DNA from: a virus | Reading direction: 5' to 3' (one strand) | Length of the DNA: 34,219 bases | Virus record (IMG/VR): IMGVR_UViG_3300036761_000603 | Location: 1 to 34,219 of that record | Shown: in pieces, positions 3,631 to 17,015 of the stretch | Numbering within the stretch: the first letter of the stretch is position 1 | How the letters are laid out: each line of letters starts with the position of its first letter | Position numbers and translations under genes: made by a program | The notes under the pieces: generated by a model | Seen by the model: the letters and a program-made list of their open reading frames with translations, nothing else | What the model was told of the DNA's origin: nothing | Databases searched by the model: none

Positions 3631-4874
3631 GCACGACACAGAGCGAGCTTCGGCTCGCGAGCCTACTCGACGAGCGGGAAACAGTCACCAAGTTGCACGA
3701 GACGGTGATCGCGTCGATCGAGACGAACGACAACAAGCTGCCGTCGGAGTCGCAGGCGCAGATGATCGTCGGCTACCGGGAGAAGGAGATCGCTCTCGAC
3801 GAGGAAATCCAGTCCCTCACGGACGACGTGGAGCGGAACCGCAGGGCGGTCGAGAGCTCGAAGGCCGTCCGCCGTGTCCTCACGGGCGGCCAGGACGGCG
3901 TCGAAGTCGACGGTGACGGAGTGGCGTACAGGTCGATGGCCGCGTACGCACGGGACGTCATCCTGACCGGAACGGGCCGTGTTGCTGGTCAGATCGCCGC
4001 GCAGTTCGGTGAGCCGACCGAGATCCAAAGGGCAAAGGAGCGGTTGCAGCTGGCTCTCCGTACCCCGGCGAACACACTGTCGGGGAACGTGGGTGGTCTG
4101 ACGCCGCCGCAGCACATCGCGCAGATCTTCCAGGTGATCGACAAGAGCCGGCCGATCGTCGCAAGCGCACGGAAGTCCGACCTCGAGCGGGGCACCCTTA
4201 CGTACCCGGTCGTCACGACACCGCCGGTCGTCGCGGTGCAGGGGACGGAGAAGACGGAGGCAGGGAACACGGGCATGGTCATCGACATGGTGACCGCGAC
4301 CGCTTCCACGTATCTCGGTGGCGGCGACCTGTCGTGGCAGGCGATCAACTGGTCGACGCCGAACGCGCTCGACCTGTGGTTCGACCTCGTCGCAGCGGAT
4401 TACGCGTTGAAGACGGAGCAGGACGCCGCACAGGTGCTCCAGCACTCCGGCTTCAGCAACAACATCAGCTCGACGATCGCCGGTACGCCGACGTTCGCGC
4501 AGTTCATGACGGCAGTGGGCGCCGGCGCGTCGGATGTGTTCACGAACTCCGGTCGGATCGCGGACACCGTGTACATGTCACCCGACAGGTACTGGTACAT
4601 CTTCGGAACGACGTCGGACGCGTTCGCGCAGTTCACGTCGGTGTCCGGCGATGGTGTCGGTCCGCTTCGCTTCATCTCCTCGAGGGGGATGGACGCGGGT
4701 GTGATCGTCGTCGGCGACTCGCAGGGTCTGCTGGTCGCGGAAACGGCCGGCGCCCCGGTCGAGCTCCGGGTCGTGGAGCCGGCTATCGGCGGTGTCGAGG
4801 TGGGTCTGATCGGTGCGTTTGAGGCCGTCGTCGTCGATGACGGTGCGTTCGCGATGATCACGACCGAGTCGTAG
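3627..4874 (+). CDS. major capsid protein, HK97 fold with N-terminal delta domain
   Basis: The main shell protein. In the 415-residue product, residues 1 to about 80 are highly charged and probably coiled-coil, the built-in scaffold (delta) domain removed by the upstream protease. The rest has the HK97-type run of beta strands, including the conserved region around TLTYPVV and a C-terminal IGAFEAVVVDDGAFAMI segment. Besides the ATGA overlap with the protease gene, a clear Shine-Dalgarno (AGAAGGAG, near 3610-3617) precedes the ATG, fitting the need for high expression. The gene is followed at once by a strong hairpin. Confidence 0.95.
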   Translation: MSTTQSELRLASLLDERETVTKLHETVIASIETNDNKLPSESQAQMIVGYREKEIALDEEIQSLTDDVERNRRAVESSKAVRRVLTGGQDGVEVDGDGVAYRSMAAYARDVILTGTGRVAGQIAAQFGEPTEIQRAKERLQLALRTPANTLSGNVGGLTPPQHIAQIFQVIDKSRPIVASARKSDLERGTLTYPVVTTPPVVAVQGTEKTEAGNTGMVIDMVTATASTYLGGGDLSWQAINWSTPNALDLWFDLVAADYALKTEQDAAQVLQHSGFSNNISSTIAGTPTFAQFMTAVGAGASDVFTNSGRIADTVYMSPDRYWYIFGTTSDAFAQFTSVSGDGVGPLRFISSRGMDAGVIVVGDSQGLLVAETAGAPVELRVVEPAIGGVEVGLIGAFEAVVVDDGAFAMITTES

Positions 4875-4886
4875 GTGTGGGGTAAG

Positions 4887-4914
4887 GCGGGGGTGTCCTT
4901 CGGGACGCCCCCGC
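4887..4914 (+). terminator. UUCG-capped stem-loop after the capsid gene
   Basis: A 12-bp stem (4887-4898 with 4903-4914, one G-U pair) closed by C-TTCG-G, the unusually stable tetraloop. It starts 12 bases after the capsid stop and is not followed by a T-run. It may be a partial terminator, or a 3' stabiliser that raises capsid mRNA relative to downstream genes. A gene start with a perfect ribosome-binding site lies 30 bases further on. Confidence 0.75.
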
Positions 4915-4930
4915 GCCACTCTCTAACGGT

Positions 4931-4942
4931 GAGGAGGTGATC
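4931..4942 (+). promoter_or_regulatory. near-perfect Shine-Dalgarno before 4945
   Basis: The run AGGAGGTGATC at 4932-4942 is complementary to eleven consecutive bases of the 16S rRNA 3' end and fixes the ATG at 4945. It is exceptional in this genome, where most starts are coupled to the previous stop and lack a strong site. It probably restarts translation after the post-capsid hairpin. Confidence 0.8.
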
Positions 4943-4944
4943 GT

Positions 4945-5568
4945 ATGAATCAGAGACCCGGAGCGACAGACGAACTGGTAGTCGACTGGGGGGCAACGGC
5001 CGCGACGTTGGGCGTTCGCGTGCTCGACAACCAGGGGGCGACGACGATCGCCCGCACCACAGGGTTTGTGGAGTACCCGGCAGGTTCGGGTGTCTACTAC
5101 CTGGCCTCGTTCACGTTCCCTGACGTTCGGGGCACGTACACGCTGCTGTATGACGACGATGGCGGAATAGCGGCCCTCGGGCATGTGTCGACGGAAGGTC
5201 TGCTTATCACGTCGAGCGCTCCGGAGGCGCCTACGGGTGACACGTACGGGACGACTGACGAGCTGTTCCTGCGCTTGAAGATTCGGCAGCCGACACCGGA
5301 TCAGGAGGCGCGCGGCGAACAGGTGCTGCTGATGGCGACAGGGGAGATCAACTCGGAGATCGACCTTGCCGTCGGCGTCGACCTCGAGCCGTGGCAGTTG
5401 GCGCTCGCCGCCGAAGTAAACCTCAAGCGCGCTGTCGAGCTTTGGGCTGAATCGCCGTTCGGCCTGATCGGCTTGGATCAGGAGTTCGTGACGCACACAG
5501 CCCGTAACTCGTGGGAACGTTACGCGCACATGCTTGCCCCGTTGAAAGACCAGTGGGGATTGGCCTGA
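4945..5568 (+). CDS. head-tail connector (gp6-like) with N-terminal beta domain
   Basis: Probably part of the adaptor ring beneath the portal. The 207-residue product seems to have two parts: residues 1-95 form a beta-rich, Ig-like segment with many Tyr/Thr/Gly residues; residues 100-207 are helical with the layout of gp6-like connectors (TTDELFLRLKI, an ATGEI helix, then W-AESPFGLIG and a final LAPLKDQWGLA). Position right after the capsid gene supports this. The N-terminal addition is not usual for minimal connectors and could be a surface or docking domain. ATG chosen because of the strong Shine-Dalgarno. Confidence 0.75.
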   Translation: MNQRPGATDELVVDWGATAATLGVRVLDNQGATTIARTTGFVEYPAGSGVYYLASFTFPDVRGTYTLLYDDDGGIAALGHVSTEGLLITSSAPEAPTGDTYGTTDELFLRLKIRQPTPDQEARGEQVLLMATGEINSEIDLAVGVDLEPWQLALAAEVNLKRAVELWAESPFGLIGLDQEFVTHTARNSWERYAHMLAPLKDQWGLA

Positions 5569-5571
5569 TCC

Positions 5572-5997
5572 GTGGCTGACCTCGTCCTGATCATGGAAGA
5601 GATGGCCGACAAGATCCGCGCGACCCTGTCGACGGTCGACTTTCCCGTCCAGGTCGAGCCGCGCATGATCTTCAACCCCACTTGCCCGTCCGTCGACATC
5701 TATCCCGCGAACCCGTCGCGGGAGCAGGAGTCAGCCGGCATGGGAGATTTGGCGGGCGCCTATCTGTTCACGGTACGCGCACGGTTCCTGATGGACGACA
5801 CCGATTCGGGGCAGGAGCTCGCGCTCGCGATGATGAACGACAACGACGACCTCTGCTTGGGCTGGGCGTTGTTCGACGACCAGACGCTGAACGGGTATGC
5901 GTCATCGGTGTTCGTTGACGACCCCTCGGGGTTCCTTGCTTTCGACCCGCACATGGGTGTGACGTGGCGTGTGACCGTGTACGCGGTGGACAGTTGA
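5572..5997 (+). CDS. probable tail terminator or head-tail joining protein
   Basis: 141 residues, GTG start three bases after the previous stop. It has an N-terminal helix (MADLVLIMEEMADKIRATL), then alternating beta strands and an acidic centre ending MGVTWRVTVYAVDS. This size, fold pattern and position between connector and tail genes fit the tail-terminator/neck family, but I do not see a diagnostic motif. It is the last recognisable structural gene before the glycan island; its TGA stop overlaps a TTG start. Confidence 0.6.
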   Translation: MADLVLIMEEMADKIRATLSTVDFPVQVEPRMIFNPTCPSVDIYPANPSREQESAGMGDLAGAYLFTVRARFLMDDTDSGQELALAMMNDNDDLCLGWALFDDQTLNGYASSVFVDDPSGFLAFDPHMGVTWRVTVYAVDS

Positions 5998-6671
5998 CCG
6001 CGACAGCCGTAGAGACGGTGCTCCGGTTGTCGATCGACGTCGAGTCAGACTGCCGGAAAACGCCTGACTGCGAGCCGTTCGTCCTCAGCGAATACTCCGA
6101 CACGTTCTACAGCAACCCCGGGCACCCGCTGTCGATCGCTCCACTACCAGCTACCGGAGACCTGTACGAGTATCGAACCTGTTCCAAGGTCGTGCGGGAA
6201 AACGCACGCGTCTCGGCCCGTCGAGGTTTCAGGTACGAGCGAATCGACAGGGCCGACTGGGAGGATGACCTGCACGCGATCAGGTCGTCGGCGCGCGAGA
6301 GGCAAGGGCGGACGATGCCGCAGGCGTACCTCGAGCGGCAGGCGTACTCGCATGATGTTCCGTCTGGTTGTCCGCGGCATAGCGCGACCGTCCACGGTGT
6401 GATCGGATTAGACGGGCATCTCGTGGCGTACTGCCAACTCATGCAGTGCGGCGAGGTCGTCAGGTTCAACACGATCCTCGGGCACGCCGACAGCCTCGCA
6501 GACAGGGTCGTGTGGCTTCTCGTCCTCGAAGCCATCAAATGGCATATCGGTGAGTGCGGCGCACGTTTCGCTCTCTACTACACGCACGACTCAGGCCACG
6601 GGCCGGGGCTCCGCTACTTCAAGGAGCGGTTCGGGTTCTCCGCAGCCGAGGTGGAGTGGGTGATCGTGTGA
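5994..6671 (+). CDS. GNAT-like N-acyltransferase
   Basis: 225 residues if translated from the TTG at 5994, which overlaps the previous stop as TTGA; an in-frame GTG at 5964 would lie inside the previous gene. The C-terminal half resembles a GNAT fold: a strand pair around HGVIGLDGHLVAYCQL (about 134-150), a long helix with VVWLLVLEAIKW (172-183), then a YYTHDSGHGPGLRYFKERFGF segment (195-215), typical of the acceptor and CoA end. The N-terminal half, with an R-S-S-A-R-E-R-Q-G-R stretch near 97-106, is typical of phage and polysaccharide-linked GNAT relatives. It heads the glycan-modification genes. Acceptor unknown; an amino sugar is plausible. Confidence 0.65.
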   Translation: MTATAVETVLRLSIDVESDCRKTPDCEPFVLSEYSDTFYSNPGHPLSIAPLPATGDLYEYRTCSKVVRENARVSARRGFRYERIDRADWEDDLHAIRSSARERQGRTMPQAYLERQAYSHDVPSGCPRHSATVHGVIGLDGHLVAYCQLMQCGEVVRFNTILGHADSLADRVVWLLVLEAIKWHIGECGARFALYYTHDSGHGPGLRYFKERFGFSAAEVEWVIV

Positions 6672-7162
6672 TCCCGCTGACATTCGAGCAGCTCCGCGAC
6701 CCAGGAACCAGCAACCTGTTTCCGCGGCATCTCCTTCGGCACGGCGACACGGCGCTGGTGCTGTTCGCCGCGGGCTTCCACGGCCGCCAGGATGCGTTCT
6801 GGATCGCAGAGGCGGGAATGACGGCAACGTGCGTGGATCTCGACAAGATCCGTCTGCACGACATGGCTGCTGTGTATCCGCCCGCATGGGAGTTCGTTGT
6901 TGGTGACGCGTTCGCGTTCGTGGAGGAATGCGCCGCTGAGCCGCACCGGTGGGATGTCGTGACTGTCGATTGCTGGTCGAACCAGTTCGACGCGTGCGCC
7001 GCTGCCGCGGAGTTATGGTGCTCGGTCGCGAGATCCGCGGTTGTGCTTGGCACCGGACGTGGAACGGTGGTCGTCCCGCCTGACGGGTGGGAGATCAGCG
7101 AGGTACGCCACCGCTCGACCTACGACGGCGGCGTGTTCTGGACTGTGCTGGAGCCACGATGA
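6668..7162 (+). CDS. class I SAM-methyltransferase-like protein
   Basis: 164 residues from the GTG overlapping the previous stop as GTGA. A Rossmann-like series is visible: a hydrophobic strand with a glycine turn (VLFAAGFHG, 31-39), a strand ending in acids (CVDLDK, 55-60), GDAFAF (79-84) and WDVVTVDCW (95-103). This is the layout of a short class I methyltransferase or spermidine-synthase-like fold. The first glycine loop is weaker than in typical enzymes, so activity is uncertain. Its place between two acyltransferases suggests sugar O- or N-methylation. Confidence 0.6.
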   Translation: MIPLTFEQLRDPGTSNLFPRHLLRHGDTALVLFAAGFHGRQDAFWIAEAGMTATCVDLDKIRLHDMAAVYPPAWEFVVGDAFAFVEECAAEPHRWDVVTVDCWSNQFDACAAAAELWCSVARSAVVLGTGRGTVVVPPDGWEISEVRHRSTYDGGVFWTVLEPR

Positions 7163-7596
7163 TCAGGCGTGAACACCAGAAATATCCGCTCCGCACAGGC
7201 GACGTCGCGCGGGTCGGCACGGGCGCCTTCTACCTCGACGAGATCACGTTGCTGAACGACCAGGGCATCACGATCGGCGACCGTGTGTCGATCGGCGCGC
7301 GCTGCTGGCTCAACGGGTTCGGCGGCATCACGATCGGGTCAGACACCATGATCGGGCCCGGCGTGTTCATTCACTCCGCCAACCACAAGATCGTGGATGG
7401 CAGCGTCGACCCTGACGAATGGGATGAGCGGCCCGTGACGATCGGTCGTGGTTGCTGGATCGGCGCTGGCAGCATCGTGCTGCCCGGCACAACACTGGAC
7501 GACGGCTGTGTGGTCGGCGCTGGATCGGTGCTGCACGGCCATTACGACACAGGGGTTGTGTTCGGCCCGAAAGCCCGCGAGCTGGAAACCGCATGA
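7159..7596 (+). CDS. hexapeptide-repeat (left-handed beta-helix) acyltransferase
   Basis: 145 residues with ATGA overlaps on both sides. Repeated I-G-x-x-x-x hexads run from about 37 to 125 (ITIGDRVSIGARCW, ITIGSDTMIGPGVFI, VTIGRGCWIGAGSIVLPG, VVGAGSVL). The loop with HSANH at 72-76 supplies the histidine used for catalysis in maltose/galactoside acetyltransferase relatives. It likely transfers acetyl from acetyl-CoA to a sugar hydroxyl or amine as a trimer. Length is short but complete for this group, which lacks the N-terminal helical domain. Confidence 0.85.
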   Translation: MIRREHQKYPLRTGDVARVGTGAFYLDEITLLNDQGITIGDRVSIGARCWLNGFGGITIGSDTMIGPGVFIHSANHKIVDGSVDPDEWDERPVTIGRGCWIGAGSIVLPGTTLDDGCVVGAGSVLHGHYDTGVVFGPKARELETA

Positions 7597-8336
7597 GAGC
7601 GTGTGAGCCGTTCCTGCCTTCTGATCTTGTGGCGCTCGGTGCCCTGCTCGAGGCCGCTGATGTCGTGCCGATGGAGGACGTGTTCGACGGCGCAACGAGC
7701 GTGTCGGAGATCGGGATGCGCCACGACTGCGACAACCTCATCCACCCGGCCGTCCAGATGGCCGAATGGGAAGCCAACTGCGGTATCCGCTCCACCTACT
7801 ACATCCTGCACACCGCGCCCTACTGGAACGACAAGCCGCTGCTACGAGCGAGCCTCGAAACGATCGCCGACTGCGGCCACGAGATCGGAATCCACAACAA
7901 CGCCGTCACGGTTGCGTTGCAGACCGGACGTGATCCCGCCGACGTGCTGCACGAGGCAACCGACGAGCTCCGGTCGTACGGCTACCCGATCAGGTCTACC
8001 GTCGGACACGGCGACAGCCTCTGCAATGTCGTCCGCTACTGCAACGACGAGATCTTCGACACCTGCGCTCGCCCAGGGTTCGGTGGGTTCCCCGACCGAA
8101 CTCTCGAGTACAAGGGACGCCAGGTTCGGTTGCGGCCACGTCCGATGAGCGAGTACGGGTTCGATTTCGACTCGATCTGGTTGCGTCGCGGCGACTATCT
8201 GAGCGACAGCGGCGGACAATGGTCGAAGCCGTTCGCGGATGTTGCTGCGGGCTGGCCTTCGAACGGCCAGTTGCACATGCTTGTCCATCCCGATTGGTGG
8301 GCGCAGGCGTTCGCGCCTGTGTTGGCGGTGACATAG
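7593..8336 (+). CDS. polysaccharide-deacetylase-like (NodB-fold) protein
   Basis: 247 residues from the ATG in the ATGA overlap at 7593. The RHDCDN motif (43-48) replaces the usual TFDD metal motif, and GHEIGIHNN (95-103) matches the second metal/His motif of NodB-like carbohydrate esterases. A VGHGD element follows (138-141). These suggest metal-dependent removal of N- or O-acetyl groups from a sugar. It could instead be a catalytically diverged sugar-binding relative. It lies directly upstream of the collagen-like fibre gene. Confidence 0.7.
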
Positions 8337-8337
8337 C

Positions 8338-11616
<3,279 letters not shown>

Positions 11617-11619
11617 AGG

Positions 11620-11868
11620 ATGACCCTGGTGGAGCGTCTAGCGGTGATGGAGTCGGAGGTCGAGTCGTTGAAGGCGGAAGTCGAGTCATTGCGGTTCAAC
11701 CAGGAGGGCGAAGGGCAACTGTGGTTTCTTGTGCGCGATCACGCGCAGAGGTTCGACACGCTCGCGACGCCGTGGTGGAAGCGCGTCTGGTTCCGCATCC
11801 TGGGGTGGCCGGGCCGCCGTGACCTGAATGCCGACCGGCCTGCGTGGCGCCCGTGGAGGGCGTTCTAG
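11620..11868 (+). CDS. small coiled-coil protein with Trp-rich C-terminus
   Basis: 82 residues. Residues 1-28 are a strong heptad-like coiled coil (leucine/valine spaced among Glu/Lys). The second half has a WWKRVWFRILGW segment that could be an interfacial membrane or docking helix, then Arg/Trp-rich residues. An AAAGG lies just before the ATG. Its position between two appendage genes suggests an adaptor or chaperone for the fibre. No family recognised. Confidence 0.65.
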   Translation: MTLVERLAVMESEVESLKAEVESLRFNQEGEGQLWFLVRDHAQRFDTLATPWWKRVWFRILGWPGRRDLNADRPAWRPWRAF

Positions 11869-13590
11869 GTGCCTACGCAGTTGTTCTTCCGGTCGGCTGC
11901 CGCGACGACGCAGCGCGGCACGAACACGAACGACCAGCGAGGGTCAGCGAAGGGATGGTGGTCGCAAGGGTTCGCGACGACGAGAGGCGGGGGCGTCACG
12001 TCGCAGAACGCGGCGACGGTCACCGGAGCCACCGCAGGGATCGAACTGGATGACGCATCGGGCTTCCTGTACGAGTGGATCTCCGATCCCCTCGACGCCG
12101 ACACGACGATCTCCGGGACGATCACGCTAAACCTGTGGGCTTCCGAGAGTTCTATGAACGCGAACGTCGCGATCAACGCACGGATCGACCGGCTCGACAG
12201 TCAGGGCGCGATCGCCTCCACGATCCTGACGACCGCTCGCGTCACCGAGGTTGCCATCACGACCAGGGCAGCGAACAACTTCACGGGCACGCCGACTTCG
12301 ACGGCCTTCCTGAAGGGCGACCGCATTCGCGTCGTCGTGTTCGGTGACGACGCGGGCACGATGGCGACGGGCTTCACGTTCGACTTCGGCTACAACGGCA
12401 CGTCGGCGGCGGCCGACGGAGACTCGTACGTGACGTTCACGGAGACGTTCGGGTTCCTCACGACCGTCCCGGCCGGATCGACGCTCTACCTCACGAACAC
12501 CGATCTTGCGCTCGCGACAGTCAATGACACCGGGTTCGGGACGGCGACGGTGGCGACGTCGGACGACCAGGGAGGCACGCCGAACTGGACGAACCCGGCG
12601 AACGCCGAAGTGTCCGATGACGTCTACGCGACCCTTGTTCTGGCGGGCACCGGCGGCGACATCCTTACCCTGAGAACGTATGGGTTCTCGCTTCCCGCCG
12701 GTTCCATCATCAGGGGAATCGAAGCGATCATCGAGGGGAAAGTCTCGACGGGCACCTACAACATGAGCGGCGCCCTGTACGTGGACGAGGTCGGCAACAG
12801 GTCGAGCAAGACGCTGACGTTGACGACGACGGAGCAGCAGTTCACGCTCGGCGGCCTCGCCGACAACTGGAACCCGACGATATTCCTGACCGAAACGCTC
12901 GTGGAAGGATCGAGCTTCAGTGTTCGTGGGGTGACAGCCACGACGGCCACTCTCACGATCAGCATCGACTACATCGCCGTCAAGGTCTACTACTCCACAA
13001 ACGGGCTGGAGAAGGAGATGTGGACGTCTCGCGGCGGCGGGGACATCCAGGTTGACAACAGAGGCACATCTTCTGTTTCAAACTGGGTAGCGGTTCCGGT
13101 TCAGAACTACACGTCAACTTCCGTCGGCGGCGTTCAACTGGAGTGGTACACGAAGCCTCTGGTGGCTTTCACGCTCTCGGGCCTCGTGAGGGCGAACCTC
13201 CGAACGAATCAGGTGAGCGCGGCAGGAGACACGTCGCCTCGTGCTGAGATCGCTGTCTGCGACGCAGACGGATCGAACGCCGTAATCTGGGGTGCCGCGT
13301 ACTTCAACGACGCGACCGGCGGCGAGATGACGAGCACGCAGGCCGCGTACATCATCGACGTCGCCGGAGACGACCTAGCGGTCACTGACGGGCAACGGAT
13401 CAGGCTTCGCTGGTATTACGGGCCGAAGTCCACATCGCAGAAGGGAGGGGAGGCGATCAGCAGCTACTACGCCGGGACGAGCGGCGGCGCATCGGGCGAC
13501 AGCTACCTGATCCTGCCGCAAACAGTCACCGAGGCAGCGACCATTCCTCGGCACCCGGCGATCAACCACTGCAACCCCGCGCTCGCGTGA
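11869..13590 (+). CDS. large beta-rich appendage protein with internal duplication
   Basis: 573 residues, GTG start directly after the previous TAG. Three parts can be seen. Residues 1-200 form a Thr/Ala/Gly-rich beta module ending in a GDSYVTFTETFGF strand. Residues 200-380 are a different beta domain. Residues 385-565 resemble the first module: both begin with a W-x-S/T-x-P-L element, continue through a hydrophobic strand series with acidic turns, and end with a GDSYL/V strand. No catalytic motif was seen. Likely a virion appendage or carbohydrate-binding adhesin working with the collagen-like fibre. GTGA overlap with a possible micro-ORF. Confidence 0.75.
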   Translation: MPTQLFFRSAAATTQRGTNTNDQRGSAKGWWSQGFATTRGGGVTSQNAATVTGATAGIELDDASGFLYEWISDPLDADTTISGTITLNLWASESSMNANVAINARIDRLDSQGAIASTILTTARVTEVAITTRAANNFTGTPTSTAFLKGDRIRVVVFGDDAGTMATGFTFDFGYNGTSAAADGDSYVTFTETFGFLTTVPAGSTLYLTNTDLALATVNDTGFGTATVATSDDQGGTPNWTNPANAEVSDDVYATLVLAGTGGDILTLRTYGFSLPAGSIIRGIEAIIEGKVSTGTYNMSGALYVDEVGNRSSKTLTLTTTEQQFTLGGLADNWNPTIFLTETLVEGSSFSVRGVTATTATLTISIDYIAVKVYYSTNGLEKEMWTSRGGGDIQVDNRGTSSVSNWVAVPVQNYTSTSVGGVQLEWYTKPLVAFTLSGLVRANLRTNQVSAAGDTSPRAEIAVCDADGSNAVIWGAAYFNDATGGEMTSTQAAYIIDVAGDDLAVTDGQRIRLRWYYGPKSTSQKGGEAISSYYAGTSGGASGDSYLILPQTVTEAATIPRHPAINHCNPALA

Positions 13591-13670
13591 AAGGAGAAAG
13601 GAACGTCGTCACCGCACCCCCGTGCACCATTTCACCGATCACTAACACCAAGAATAAGGAGGCTCGATAA
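13587..13670 (+). CDS. candidate 27-residue micro-ORF
   Basis: A GTG overlaps the previous stop as GTGA, and the TAA stop overlaps the next ATG as TAATG, giving an unbroken coupling chain. The product is short, basic and has no recognised motif. It also holds the AAGGAGG ribosome-binding site for the next gene near its end, so it may only be a translated spacer or leader. Confidence 0.35.
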   Translation: MKGERNVVTAPPCTISPITNTKNKEAR

Positions 13671-14014
13671 TGCCCGCATACACACCGGCAACGCTGATCT
13701 CGACGAAAATCCTCGGGAACGGCGCGGCCAACATCGCAACATGGCGGCACCAGAACACCGCTGGCGCCTCGACGTTCAGCATCATCCGAACGTTCCTGAT
13801 CGAAACCGTCACGGCCGCACGCACCGTCACGATCCAGCAGGGCGTCACGGCAGCCGACACGGCAGCGCAAAGGCTGTTCGACGCCTACCCGCTGACGGCA
13901 AACCAGCCGTTCATCCAGAACGGATGGTGGGTCGTGATCAACTCCGACTACTTCCAAGGGTTCGCCAACTCGACGGACATCAACGGCGCAGCCTACGGAT
14001 ACACGTACGCATGA
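13670..14014 (+). CDS. small structural-like protein of unknown function
   Basis: 114 residues, preceded by AAGGAGG about 8 bases upstream. It is Ala/Thr/Asn-rich with predicted beta strands, including RTVTIQQGVTAADTAAQRLFDAYPL (spanning about 51-75) and a final WWVVINSDYFQGF region. Composition resembles small virion surface proteins. The strong ribosome-binding site suggests high expression, as for a decoration protein. Function not assigned. Confidence 0.7.
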   Translation: MPAYTPATLISTKILGNGAANIATWRHQNTAGASTFSIIRTFLIETVTAARTVTIQQGVTAADTAAQRLFDAYPLTANQPFIQNGWWVVINSDYFQGFANSTDINGAAYGYTYA

Positions 14015-14250
14015 CGGCGGTTCAGGACATGGAGCGGCGGGCTCATCGTTTCGATGAGCTGGCCCTCCGTCCGCAAGCGAAGGGCATCCCGACGTTCCGC
14101 TGTCCCGTGTGCAGAAACAAAGCTCAGAATGATGCAACGGCGATGGAACCAGCGTGCACGGGCCCAGGATCGGCTGACGTGCATCCGCTGACGGTGATGG
14201 TGCGTGTGGCCGACGAGCAGCCGACGAACATGATCTGCGTGACGACATGA
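14011..14250 (+). CDS. small zinc-ribbon-like protein
   Basis: 79 residues with ATGA overlaps at both ends. Cys-Pro-Val-Cys at about 31-34 and further Cys at about 49 and 76 suggest a zinc site, though the second pair is widely spaced. The N-terminal 25 residues are helical and charged. It directly precedes a methyltransferase and two glycosyltransferases; an adaptor role is a guess only. Confidence 0.6.
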   Translation: MTAVQDMERRAHRFDELALRPQAKGIPTFRCPVCRNKAQNDATAMEPACTGPGSADVHPLTVMVRVADEQPTNMICVTT

Positions 14251-14855
14251 CAACATCTAGCGGGAACCTCGTGGAAGACGCGCAGGACTGGGAAGCCGGC
14301 TGGTGGGGCGACTGCATCAACACGTTCGGTGAGGAAGCGAAGCAGATCAGCTACGCGCACCGGATGGGGTTGCTCGTCGTGCCCGACTACGGACGCTGGC
14401 CCATGTACGACCTTGCCGAAGCATCCATTCTCGATCTCGGCGGCGGCCCGGTATCGATGCTGCTGAAGACACGCAACAAAGGTAAGCATTGCACCGTCGT
14501 CGACCCGTGCGCGTACCCGGAATGGATCGCGACCCGCTACGAGGTCGCGGGCATCGAGTACGTGCGAGAGGAAGCCGAGACGTTCCAGTCGGGCATCGAG
14601 TTCTCGGAGGCGTGGTGCTACAACGTGTTGCAGCACGTCGTCGACCCCGAGTCGGTGATCGCGACAGCGAAGACGCACGCGAGCAGGCTCCGCATCTTCG
14701 AGTGGCTCGAGACGGAGGCGTGCGACGGACATCCGCACACGTTGCGGGCTGACGACCTGAACAAGTGGATCGGGAAGGGTTCGGGCGTGATCGAGATGGT
14801 GAACGAGAACGGCGCCTACGGCCTCGCGTTCTACGGAAACTTCGACCTCCGGTGA
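14247..14855 (+). CDS. class I SAM-dependent methyltransferase
   Basis: 202 residues. ILDLGGGPVS at 61-70 is a good motif I for SAM binding; CTVVDPC (about 81-87) fits the acidic end of strand 2, and a CYNVLQHVVDPE segment (about 129-140) matches the post-III region of small-molecule methyltransferases. The C-terminal half contains an EWLETEACDGHPHTL segment like those of sugar and lipid O-methyltransferases. Coupled by ATGA to the zinc-ribbon-like gene and by GTGA to a glycosyltransferase, so a sugar-methylating role is likely. Confidence 0.85.
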   Translation: MTTSSGNLVEDAQDWEAGWWGDCINTFGEEAKQISYAHRMGLLVVPDYGRWPMYDLAEASILDLGGGPVSMLLKTRNKGKHCTVVDPCAYPEWIATRYEVAGIEYVREEAETFQSGIEFSEAWCYNVLQHVVDPESVIATAKTHASRLRIFEWLETEACDGHPHTLRADDLNKWIGKGSGVIEMVNENGAYGLAFYGNFDLR

Positions 14856-16006
14856 CATCAACGCTACACGTGATCGGACTTCCACACACGCAGACGAACG
14901 GCGAGTGGACGACGTGCGCATACACGACGAAGGCCGAACGGTTCTGCCGAATGATGACCGGAGGCGACCGCAAAGTCATCCTCTATTCGGGCGAGCTCAA
15001 CACAGCTCCCTGTGATGAGCATGTTCCGTTGCTGACGGAGGAACGACGGCGCGAGTGGTTCGGCCCGCCCGACGAGACACAGCTGAACCGGGGCGGCTTC
15101 GACTGGCAGGCAACGTCGCCCTGGTGGACGGAAATGAACGCGAGGGCGATCGGCGAGATCATGGAACGAGCCGACAAGCAGGATCTGCTTCTTCTCTCGT
15201 CGGGCACGTCACAACAGATCATCGCGGAGGCGCTACCTCAGCTCACGCTCGCGGAGTACGGCGTCGGCTACGAAGGCATCATCCTCACTCGGGCGAAGAC
15301 GGCAGGCCCGTGCTTCGCCGCTTACGAGTCCCATTCGCACCGGCACCTTGTTTACGGGCTGAACGGTTGGCGCCGGGGCCGCGAGTACGACACCGTGATC
15401 CCGAACTTCTTCGACCGGGCCGAGCTGCCCGAGGGCGACGGCGACGGCGGCTACCTGTTGTTCATGGGCAGGCTCATCCATCAAAAGGGCGTCCACATCG
15501 CCGCGATGGTCGCGGAAGCTCTCGACATGCGGCTCGTCGTCACGGGGCCCGGGGCGACGGAGTGGGGAGACGGCTTCGTCAGGTTCCCCGAAGGCGAAGC
15601 GAGGGCGCCGGGATTGGAGTACGTCGGCCCCGTCGGGATCGAGGAGCGCGCGCGGCTGATGGGAGGCGCGGCGGTGACGCTGATGCCGACCCTGTACGTG
15701 GAGCCGTTCGGAGGCGTCGCCGTCGAAAGCATGATGTGTGGTACCCCCGTCGTCACGACCGACTTCGGAGCGTTCACAGAAACCGTCGTCGAGGGGCTAT
15801 CCGGCTACCGCTTCCAGACGCTGCAGGAAGCTGTCGACGGAACAGAGCGCGCAATGAGCCTCGACCGGCCCACCGTTCGCGACTACGCCGTCGGCCGCTA
15901 CTCCCTCGACGCCGTCGCCCCACTGTACGACCGCTGGTTCACGAACCTCGACGGACTGTGGGGCGAAGGCTGGACCGCCCTGCGCGAACGAGAACTGGCC
16001 GCCTGA
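14852..16006 (+). CDS. GT4-like (GT-B fold) glycosyltransferase
   Basis: 384 residues from the GTG that overlaps the previous stop (GTGA); an upstream ATG at 14765 lies inside the methyltransferase gene. The C-terminal half has the GT4 signature: GRLIHQKGVHIAA (about 207-219), then E284-PFGGVAV-E292, the E-x7-E nucleotide-sugar motif, followed by CGTPVVTTDFGAFTE. The N-terminal half is the acceptor domain. It probably transfers a sugar from a nucleotide donor onto a growing glycan or virion protein. Confidence 0.92.
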   Translation: MTSTLHVIGLPHTQTNGEWTTCAYTTKAERFCRMMTGGDRKVILYSGELNTAPCDEHVPLLTEERRREWFGPPDETQLNRGGFDWQATSPWWTEMNARAIGEIMERADKQDLLLLSSGTSQQIIAEALPQLTLAEYGVGYEGIILTRAKTAGPCFAAYESHSHRHLVYGLNGWRRGREYDTVIPNFFDRAELPEGDGDGGYLLFMGRLIHQKGVHIAAMVAEALDMRLVVTGPGATEWGDGFVRFPEGEARAPGLEYVGPVGIEERARLMGGAAVTLMPTLYVEPFGGVAVESMMCGTPVVTTDFGAFTETVVEGLSGYRFQTLQEAVDGTERAMSLDRPTVRDYAVGRYSLDAVAPLYDRWFTNLDGLWGEGWTALRERELAA

Positions 16007-16803
16007 TGCCGTCCCTCTGGTTCGTCGTCCCGGTTCACGGGAGGCTCCCGCTTGCCTCCATCTGCCTACGCCAGTTACGCCGCACCTGTGACGCGCTGAC
16101 CGAAGCCGGCATTGAGGCCACCGCTGTCATCGTGGCTGACAAGGAGAACCTGCGTGATCTACAGCGGCGTCTGAAGGGCAGCGGCGAAACGCCGATGCTA
16201 GGGTTCGGAACAGTGAAGCGCGACAACACGTTCCTGAGCCGCAGGTTCAACGACGGCATCCAACTCGCTCTCGACCCGCAGCACAATCCTCGGCCAGCCG
16301 ACTATGTGGTTCCGTGCGGATCGGACGACTGGGTCGACTGGCGCATCCTCACGAAACTTCCCGAGGGAAACACGGTGCTCGGGTTCCAGCATCTGTCGTT
16401 CGTCAGGGAAGACGGACGCGAGATGACGTCCAGGTTCCTGAACTACCCGGGTGGCTGCGGCATCCGCGTGTATCCACGCCGGATGATGGCGAGGCTTGGC
16501 TATCGGCCCGCGGACGAGGACCGCAAACGCGCGTGCGACACCAGCATTCTGCGGAACGTGATCCAGGCCCACCAGGGCATCCGGATGCAGATTCTGCATG
16601 GCGAGATCGACCCCCGTCAGATCGTCGACTGGAAGTCATCGGAACAGCAGCTCAACTCGTACGAGGCATTGGAGATCCACAAGCCCGTCTCGACGGCCGA
16701 TCCGTTCTCCGAGCTCGCAGACATCTATCCGGCCGAATCGTTGCGTGACATGGAAGCCCACTATACGAACGCAAGGCCGCAACGGTTCCTGGTGACGACA
16801 TGA
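16006..16803 (+). CDS. GT-A fold (GT2-like) glycosyltransferase
   Basis: 265 residues, start sharing one base with the previous stop (TGATG). It opens with a strand LWFVVPVHGR typical of GT2 enzymes. CGSDDW at 104-109 supplies a DxD-like metal/nucleotide-sugar motif, and RRFNDGIQLA resembles the usual N-x-G segment before it. It is shorter than many GT2 proteins and lacks membrane helices, so it is likely cytosolic. Works next to the GT4 enzyme, perhaps adding a second sugar. Confidence 0.85.
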   Translation: MPSLWFVVPVHGRLPLASICLRQLRRTCDALTEAGIEATAVIVADKENLRDLQRRLKGSGETPMLGFGTVKRDNTFLSRRFNDGIQLALDPQHNPRPADYVVPCGSDDWVDWRILTKLPEGNTVLGFQHLSFVREDGREMTSRFLNYPGGCGIRVYPRRMMARLGYRPADEDRKRACDTSILRNVIQAHQGIRMQILHGEIDPRQIVDWKSSEQQLNSYEALEIHKPVSTADPFSELADIYPAESLRDMEAHYTNARPQRFLVTT

Positions 16804-17015
16804 ACGACACCCACGGCCTCTATCTGGTGTGCGGTTCCCGTGCTTACCGCGGGCATCAGCCAGGAGAGACGTTCGAGGCGAACATCGAACGGAACGCGGA
16901 ACGTCGTGCCGTACAACGACGCGACATACGTTTGCTCGAGCGGATTACCCCGACCATCCAGCCGGGGAGTTTCACGCTTCCGCATGGCTGGCTCACACAA
17001 GAAGGAGGAAGGTAG
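16800..17015 (+). CDS. small conserved-looking phage protein, unknown
   Basis: 71 residues with ATGA overlap to the glycosyltransferase. The pattern YRGHQPGETFEA (16-27), an Arg/Glu-rich helix (28-47) and a Pro/Gly-rich end with LPHGWL recalls short proteins encoded just upstream of tail-tube genes in actinophages. No enzyme motif. It marks the return from the island to tail genes. Confidence 0.65.
   Translation: MNDTHGLYLVCGSRAYRGHQPGETFEANIERNAERRAVQRRDIRLLERITPTIQPGSFTLPHGWLTQEGGR

Follow-up and report, generated by a model that had tools for sequence, protein, structure and literature searches.

Proposed decoration systems and the layout of the island

Glycosylated phage virions, collagen-like tail fibres and bacterial collagens that bear sugars have each been described (PMC12363180, PMC8968730, PMC7029224). 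Here we analyze an island in the IMG/VR virus record IMGVR_UViG_3300036761_000603, where a collagen-like fibre gene and seven enzyme-like genes stand together among head and tail genes; the window, in what follows, is this whole viral record of 34,219 bases. The island consists of two modules: module 1 (genes A-B-C-D and L-M) holds module 2 (collagen gene E, appendage genes, J and K) at its D|L junction. We favor, with modest confidence, the reading that a single virion operon carries two stacked decoration modules, each mobile independently of the other, with K and J acting on the fibre and module 1 on another part of the virion.

The repeats of BclA, a spore surface protein, are Gly-Pro-Thr. 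This protein of the Bacillus exosporium is a Thr-rich glycosylated bacterial collagen (PMC8968730); E, in contrast, would be a phage fibre and is nearly Pro-free. The nearest cultured capsid relatives of the window are those of Corndogvirus (25% identity; profile E 8.3e-27 for Catdawg), and the Catdawg portal is likewise homologous to that of the window's lineage. Catdawg gp33-36, a methyltransferase followed by three glycosyltransferases (GTs), lie among structural genes as module 1 does, but between portal and protease, and none of the four is Fem-like or NodB-like. Corndog gp38 is reported to be essential for capsid glycosylation (PMC12363180). By analogy, module 1 may work like a Corndog-type system, yet it is not a member of it. 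The collagen-J-K order of the window is found in the cyanophage ACG-2014f (J 44% and K 32% identical to those of the window), and collagen genes precede K in S-CAM7 and S-CBWM1. These are T4-like Synechococcus phages, and no module 1 is present in the stretches examined; unlike the window, ACG-2014f and S-CAM7 have an additional 2-oxoglutarate (2OG)-Fe(II) oxygenase (PiuC in ACG-2014f). In freshwater actinophages, GTs and collagen-like proteins are reported without being linked to each other in the accessible text (PMC10202952). Within the accessible portions of the open-access PubMed Central literature, we found neither a phage collagen fibre linked to a GT nor a precedent for the collagen-then-K order, for a swappable A-B-X-D block (X being a small GT that stands in place of C in most relatives) or for a Fem-like fold in a virion-gene cassette.

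A preliminary description of this DNA had proposed one glycan-building island around the fibre, and its coordinates and gene set prove correct on re-examination. The island is real, though composed of two modules instead of a single system. Its enzyme-like genes were counted as eight consecutive ones; they exist, but number seven, split into four before E (A-D) and three after the appendage genes (J-K-L). The start-stop overlaps recorded there occur at eight junctions (g7|A TTGA, A|B GTGA, B|C ATGA, C|D ATGA, I|J ATGA, J|K GTGA, K|L TGATG and L|M ATGA), whereas D|E has none. The genes are as follows (coordinates, strand, product, basis).

A, 5994..6671, +: transferase with a predicted Fem/MprF-like fold, module 1 (model and fold matches)
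B, 6668..7162, +: putative methyltransferase-like protein, module 1, weakly supported (Pfam match beneath cut-off)
C, 7159..7596, +: hexapeptide O-acyltransferase in the variable B|D slot (Pfam Hexapep)
D, 7593..8336, +: NodB-like protein, module 1 (motifs RHDxD and GHExGxH)
E, 8338..11616, +: collagen-like fibre with N-terminal anchor and C-terminal head, module 2 (Pfam Collagen, PHROG)
F, 11620..11868, +: small protein after the fibre, module 2 (conserved in L002)
G, 11869..13590, +: appendage protein, module 2 (relative in L002; PepX_C at its cut-off, E 1.2e-4)
H, 13670..14014, +: small protein, module 2 (relatives in 13 loci, mostly collagen loci)
I, 14011..14250, +: small protein, module 2 (relatives in 7 loci; no Pfam match)
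J, 14247..14855, +: class I methyltransferase, partner of K (Methyltransf_23, phrog_3603)
K, 14852..16006, +: GT4 glycosyltransferase linked to collagen genes (Glyco_trans_1_4, phrog_3408)
L, 16006..16803, +: predicted GT-A glycosyltransferase, candidate constant step of module 1 (model and fold matches)
M, 16800..17015, +: small conserved protein after L (in 31 loci, behind L wherever both are present; no Pfam match)

Collagen genes and the K family

E contains 290 Gly-X-Y triplets, with Thr in the Y position of 79% and Pro in 2%. It matches PHROG tail fibre families and passes the Pfam cut-off for Collagen (3.3e-119), as K (2.6e-15; Glyco_trans_1_4, 57.4 bits against a cut-off of 27), J (2.3e-6) and C (Hexapep, 3.8e-16) do for their own families.

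Does K accompany collagen genes elsewhere? We scanned the best 80 of 562 K relatives and the best 80 of 214 J relatives, so the counts hold for close relatives. With the K loci on contigs already known removed (L306, L307, L326, L332, L337), 54 K representatives were left in IMG/VR. Among these, a same-strand collagen gene lies within 5 kb upstream of K in 27 of the 43 loci with at least 3 kb there, and downstream in 2 of 48 (Fisher p 6.5e-10). Counting either side, collagen is found near K 26 times within 3 kb and 31 times within 5 kb, versus 16.4 and 22.5 for random positions in the same loci. K matches occur in 58 phage records, 51 of them in S-CAM7, S-CBWM1 and ACG-2014f, and the other seven being partial or weak matches in faecal contigs. 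One record of each named phage was read. That of ACG-2014f encodes, in sequence, a collagen protein, a small protein, J, K, a 2OG-Fe(II) oxygenase, another small protein and a tail fibre. K is preceded by two collagen genes in S-CAM7 and, in S-CBWM1, by a tail-fibre gene with 67 collagen triplets. The preliminary description had suggested looking for its gene set beside collagen genes of other phages, and the K family does recur there, in the 27 IMG/VR loci and in three Synechococcus phage species. Recurrence behind collagen genes of unrelated phages is what would be expected of a dedicated fibre glycosyltransferase, and the GT4-collagen link is thus supported at the level of gene order. The idea of a glycosylated fibre may stand in this part, with K downstream of Thr-rich collagen genes; the idea that all the enzymes serve the fibre is not supported.

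J is frequently a neighbor of the K family. Of 80 J loci, 60 have a K-family gene within 500 nucleotides; clustering leaves 25 J loci, 15 with such a gene and 8 of these arranged as in the window. J lies within that distance in 10 of 80 K loci. As a separate observation, the oxygenase gene behind K in ACG-2014f (L304:9609-10202; Pfam 3.8e-18) might encode a collagen hydroxylase.

Module 2 also occurs by itself. The C-terminal head of E is 84-94% identical in L002 and L003; E-F-G-H-I-J-K recur in the first and E, H, I, J and K in the second, and neither locus contains a match to A-D or L. The family of this collagen head comprises 10 non-redundant loci (window, L002, L003, L050, L052, L053, L056, L057, L058, L059). 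A K-family GT4 stands near the collagen gene in four (window, L002, L003, L053) and a weak GT2 match beneath cut-off in two (L056, L057); a GT candidate in L058 was dropped for want of Pfam support. The three loci with both J and K are Pro-poor (2-3% of triplets, against 15-36% in the others), but they are closely related to one another. A need of Pro-poor Gly-X-Thr collagens for a GT was considered and rejected, the wider survey given below pointing the opposite way.

K is separable from module 1 within one lineage as well. Among 35 other module 1 records searched with the K profile, K is present in 1 of the 34 virus records (L015, cut by the contig end), while the remaining record, from a metagenome-assembled genome (MAG), gave ten GT matches of its own. 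In L016/L329, a near-twin of L015, K stands 2.6 kb behind a collagen gene and approximately 9 kb from the cassette. In this lineage K accompanies collagen, and the cassette does not.

Some further loci deserve mention. The records of L002 and L003 (L300, L301) each have three more GT2 matches over the cut-off, in a cluster of small GT and methyltransferase-like genes that adjoins terminase and portal-like genes. L310 and L012, on one contig, hold A-, D- and X-like genes and a K-family GT4 with an opposite-strand collagen-like frame nearby. Very long, nearly Pro-free collagen frames with Thr in Y, up to 3605 amino acids and 1107 triplets, are found at L104:1-10815 and L101:1-7364.

The module 1 cassette in its relatives

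An alignment of D led to 44 IMG/VR loci, and iterated profiles were run over 58 loci and the window, with L060 added later. Near-duplicates (L014, L016, L029, L031, L035) were left out of the counts, and L007 and L030 were counted separately since their cassettes differ. Both D and L occur in 36 non-redundant loci; g7 lies upstream in 29 of them, window included, and this 29-locus set excludes seven D+L loci without a g7 match (L018, L020, L021, L023, L027, L044, L046). The order is g7 - A - B - slot - D - slot - L - M; in a subset, B precedes A. A tail-tube homologue follows downstream in 26 of the 29.

In 20 of the 29 loci the L match begins within 35 nucleotides of the D match. Fibre genes occupy the D|L slot in six loci (window, L008, L009, L010, L024, L026), and a collagen gene is found there in two of the 29 (window, L008). 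The N-terminal anchor of the window's fibre is shared by the fibres of L009 (by motif) and of L010 and L026 (by reading). Short open reading frames (ORFs) of other kinds fill this slot in L005, where a 95 amino acid ORF (7783-8070) resembles a LuxR-type helix-turn-helix, and in L039, where the ORF (10831-11259) is HNH endonuclease-like. The B|D slot holds X in 23 of the 29; the exceptions are a weak GT4-like gene (L015), a methyltransferase (L019, L024), the hexapeptide enzyme C (window) and an empty slot (L022, L060). Relatives of C are found only in the window and L013.

The D|L slot is thus free of collagen genes in 27 of the 29 loci, and the earlier proposal, which assigned A, B, C, D and L to the collagen fibre, is not supported. 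In four further loci (L018, L021, L023, L027), L-A-B-X-D sits behind another capsid gene, one to which the profile of the window's capsid gives no match (in L021 B is unmatched; L023 has two L genes and a tail-tube match). Among the signs against its proposal, the preliminary description had itself named the occurrence of these enzymes far from collagen genes in relatives, with action on host wall polymers alone; by that test we take the module 1 enzymes to be fibre-independent.

The pair L007/L030 records an exchange. As far as the start of A the two share 94.8% identity, and from approximately 50 nucleotides before the stop of D onward they share 90.2%; their L and capsid proteins are 95% and 93% identical. 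Between these points, A, B, X and D are only 49, 51, 36 and 44% identical, and the order of A and B is reversed. A-B-X-D can therefore be exchanged as a block, the right edge of which falls within approximately 50 nucleotides of the D|L junction, the place where module 2 stands in the window. Variation of A-B-X-D around a constant L fits a glycan that varies on a constant scaffold, with L as the probable constant step.

A was modelled with AlphaFold over 6018-6668 from a 33-member alignment (predicted local distance difference test [pLDDT] 94). Its top 12 VIA rows are FemX, FemA, Sbb17/Sba18 and MprF (Z 13.5-15.8 over 177-195 residues), Sbb17/Sba18 being aminoacyl-tRNA-dependent synthases. The next row is the tandem GNAT acetyltransferase VipF (Z 13.4 over 141 residues), within 1 Z of the lower Fem-type rows. 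Judged by the model, A, which was earlier assigned to GNAT, is nearer to the Fem/MprF-type transferases with their tandem-GNAT fold than to a plain GNAT and is better named Fem-like, with use of aminoacyl-tRNA as a putative property. The model of L (pLDDT 93) has a GT-A fold, nearest to WrtF, heparosan synthase, TarP and TarS (Z 15.4-16.0; GT-A enzymes over 174-199 residues). Against PDB profiles L matched 3bcv alone (E 0.001), and the other PDB profile searches gave nothing clear.

A, D and L of the window have no match in Pfam or NCBIfam, and A, B, D and L none in PHROG. B, which has relatives in 43 loci, reaches Spermine_synth only beneath the Pfam cut-off (E 0.17), and the best NCBIfam matches of C, of WbbJ and WcaF types, are below their cut-offs. 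D we take to be NodB-like from its motifs; RHDxD and GHExGxH are invariant in its 31 relatives, one of which matches Pfam Polysacc_deac_1 (E 0.075; window D does not) and one a PHROG (E 0.009). A tblastn search of 50,697 phage records at E 1e-5 with D, L and X of L008 (A, B and C were not in the search) found nothing. Ratios of nonsynonymous to synonymous substitution (dN/dS) are 0.08-0.38 in the compared gene pairs, which fits genes under constraint; dS is near saturation for the module 1 pairs.

Readings of the two modules

For substrates, linkages, order of steps and the virion proteins acted upon, we infer the following. K would glycosylate the fibre, the Thr hydroxyls of Gly-X-Thr being the most likely acceptors, and J would methylate the sugar so attached. 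Module 1 would have a different virion protein as its cytoplasmic substrate, probably one of the head or tail: L would add a constant sugar, and A-B-(X or C)-D would tailor it by deacetylation, acyl or aminoacyl transfer, and an extra sugar, methyl or O-acyl group. The D|L junction might then serve both the swapping of tailoring blocks and the insertion of fibre genes.

Several observations weigh against this reading. By their models, L resembles wall-teichoic GTs and A the wall-building Fem enzymes, so a host-wall target would fit too. No sequence relation of A, B, X, D, L, K or J to Corndog-type enzymes was found (best E 0.038, six proteins). A second close pair, L042/L043, shows no swap, leaving one swapped pair of two. 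Sixteen of the 43 K loci lack upstream collagen, collagen lies near J in only 6 of 21 loci, and at 1.5 kb there is no excess of collagen near K (14 versus 11.1, p 0.18). In a survey of Thr-rich collagens against two GT families (22 of 28 Pro-poor and 26 of 99 Pro-containing records used), a GT lies within 6 kb in 1 of the 22 Pro-poor records (2.8 expected) and nearby in 13 of the 26 Pro-containing ones (6.9 expected, p 0.0016, the records not being independent); in one record, G007, another collagen gene is closer to the GT than the counted one.

Might module 1 instead remodel the host envelope, that is, a wall polymer or peptidoglycan precursor, late in infection and against superinfection or decoy receptors, its position among virion genes merely timing expression? 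We regard this as rather unlikely. In its favor, the structure of L is close to those of TarP and TarS, A resembles FemX, FemA and MprF, and a block swap would also suit a changing host receptor; for pelagimyophage GTs near tail fibres, PMC7029224 favors a change of the host O-chain. Against it, two lineages keep module 1 among their head and tail genes. A deacetylase that acts on a completed wall polymer is usually an exported protein, whereas a hydropathy scan, which is not a signal-peptide predictor, finds no segment of at least 1.6 in D (31 members), X (25), L (29) or K (3), so that D, X and L appear to lack an export or membrane segment; segments above 1.6 occur in 2 of 33 members of A and 4 of 28 of B.

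It is equally doubtful that J and K have the host surface as their target and travel with the tail-fibre region as passengers, their position behind collagen saying nothing about the fibre. The loci without upstream collagen (15 of 21 for J, besides those of K) and the missing excess at 1.5 kb are what such passengers would give; the strongly one-sided order around K, and its company with collagen rather than the cassette in the window's lineage, speak against it. That all seven enzymes make one glycan for the collagen fibre is very improbable: they do flank the fibre, coupled by overlaps, and L008 likewise has a collagen gene in its D|L slot, but most cassette loci have none there, and L002 and L003 carry the collagen module without a match to A-D or L.

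Under the reading of two stacked modules, K, if it glycosylates phage collagen, would be a compact enzyme for glycosylated collagen-like fibres and could help to explain why the repeats of phage collagens are rich in Thr. If A-D is a glycan allele, particle chemistry could be changed by cassette exchange with the capsid kept, a change that would matter for adsorption, host range and recognition. Phages may thus coat their particles with swappable sugars. More tentatively, it is possible that tailed phages have two decoration systems so far unrecognised, a K family that O-glycosylates Thr-rich collagen and a swappable cassette that puts a tailored amino sugar, possibly aminoacylated, on a constant virion protein; the 2OG-Fe(II) oxygenase of some cyanophages would then be a phage counterpart of collagen maturation, and near-identical phages would differ in particle chemistry like bacterial serotypes.

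As to the rest of the window, no near-identical DNA was found in the 50,697 phage records and no tRNA genes were found in the window itself. PHROG profiles identify terminase, portal, major head protein, tape measure, endolysin and helicase; the labels of the connector (g6, g7) and tail tube (N) come from position and reading, all three being without a PHROG match. The host may be actinobacterial, though the evidence for this is weak: the cassette occurs on a 38.9 kb contig from an Actinomycetota MAG, which may be a mis-binned phage, and the capsid has its 25% identity to Corndogvirus. In L009 a tail-tube homologue (4811-5227) stands between capsid and g6, not behind M.

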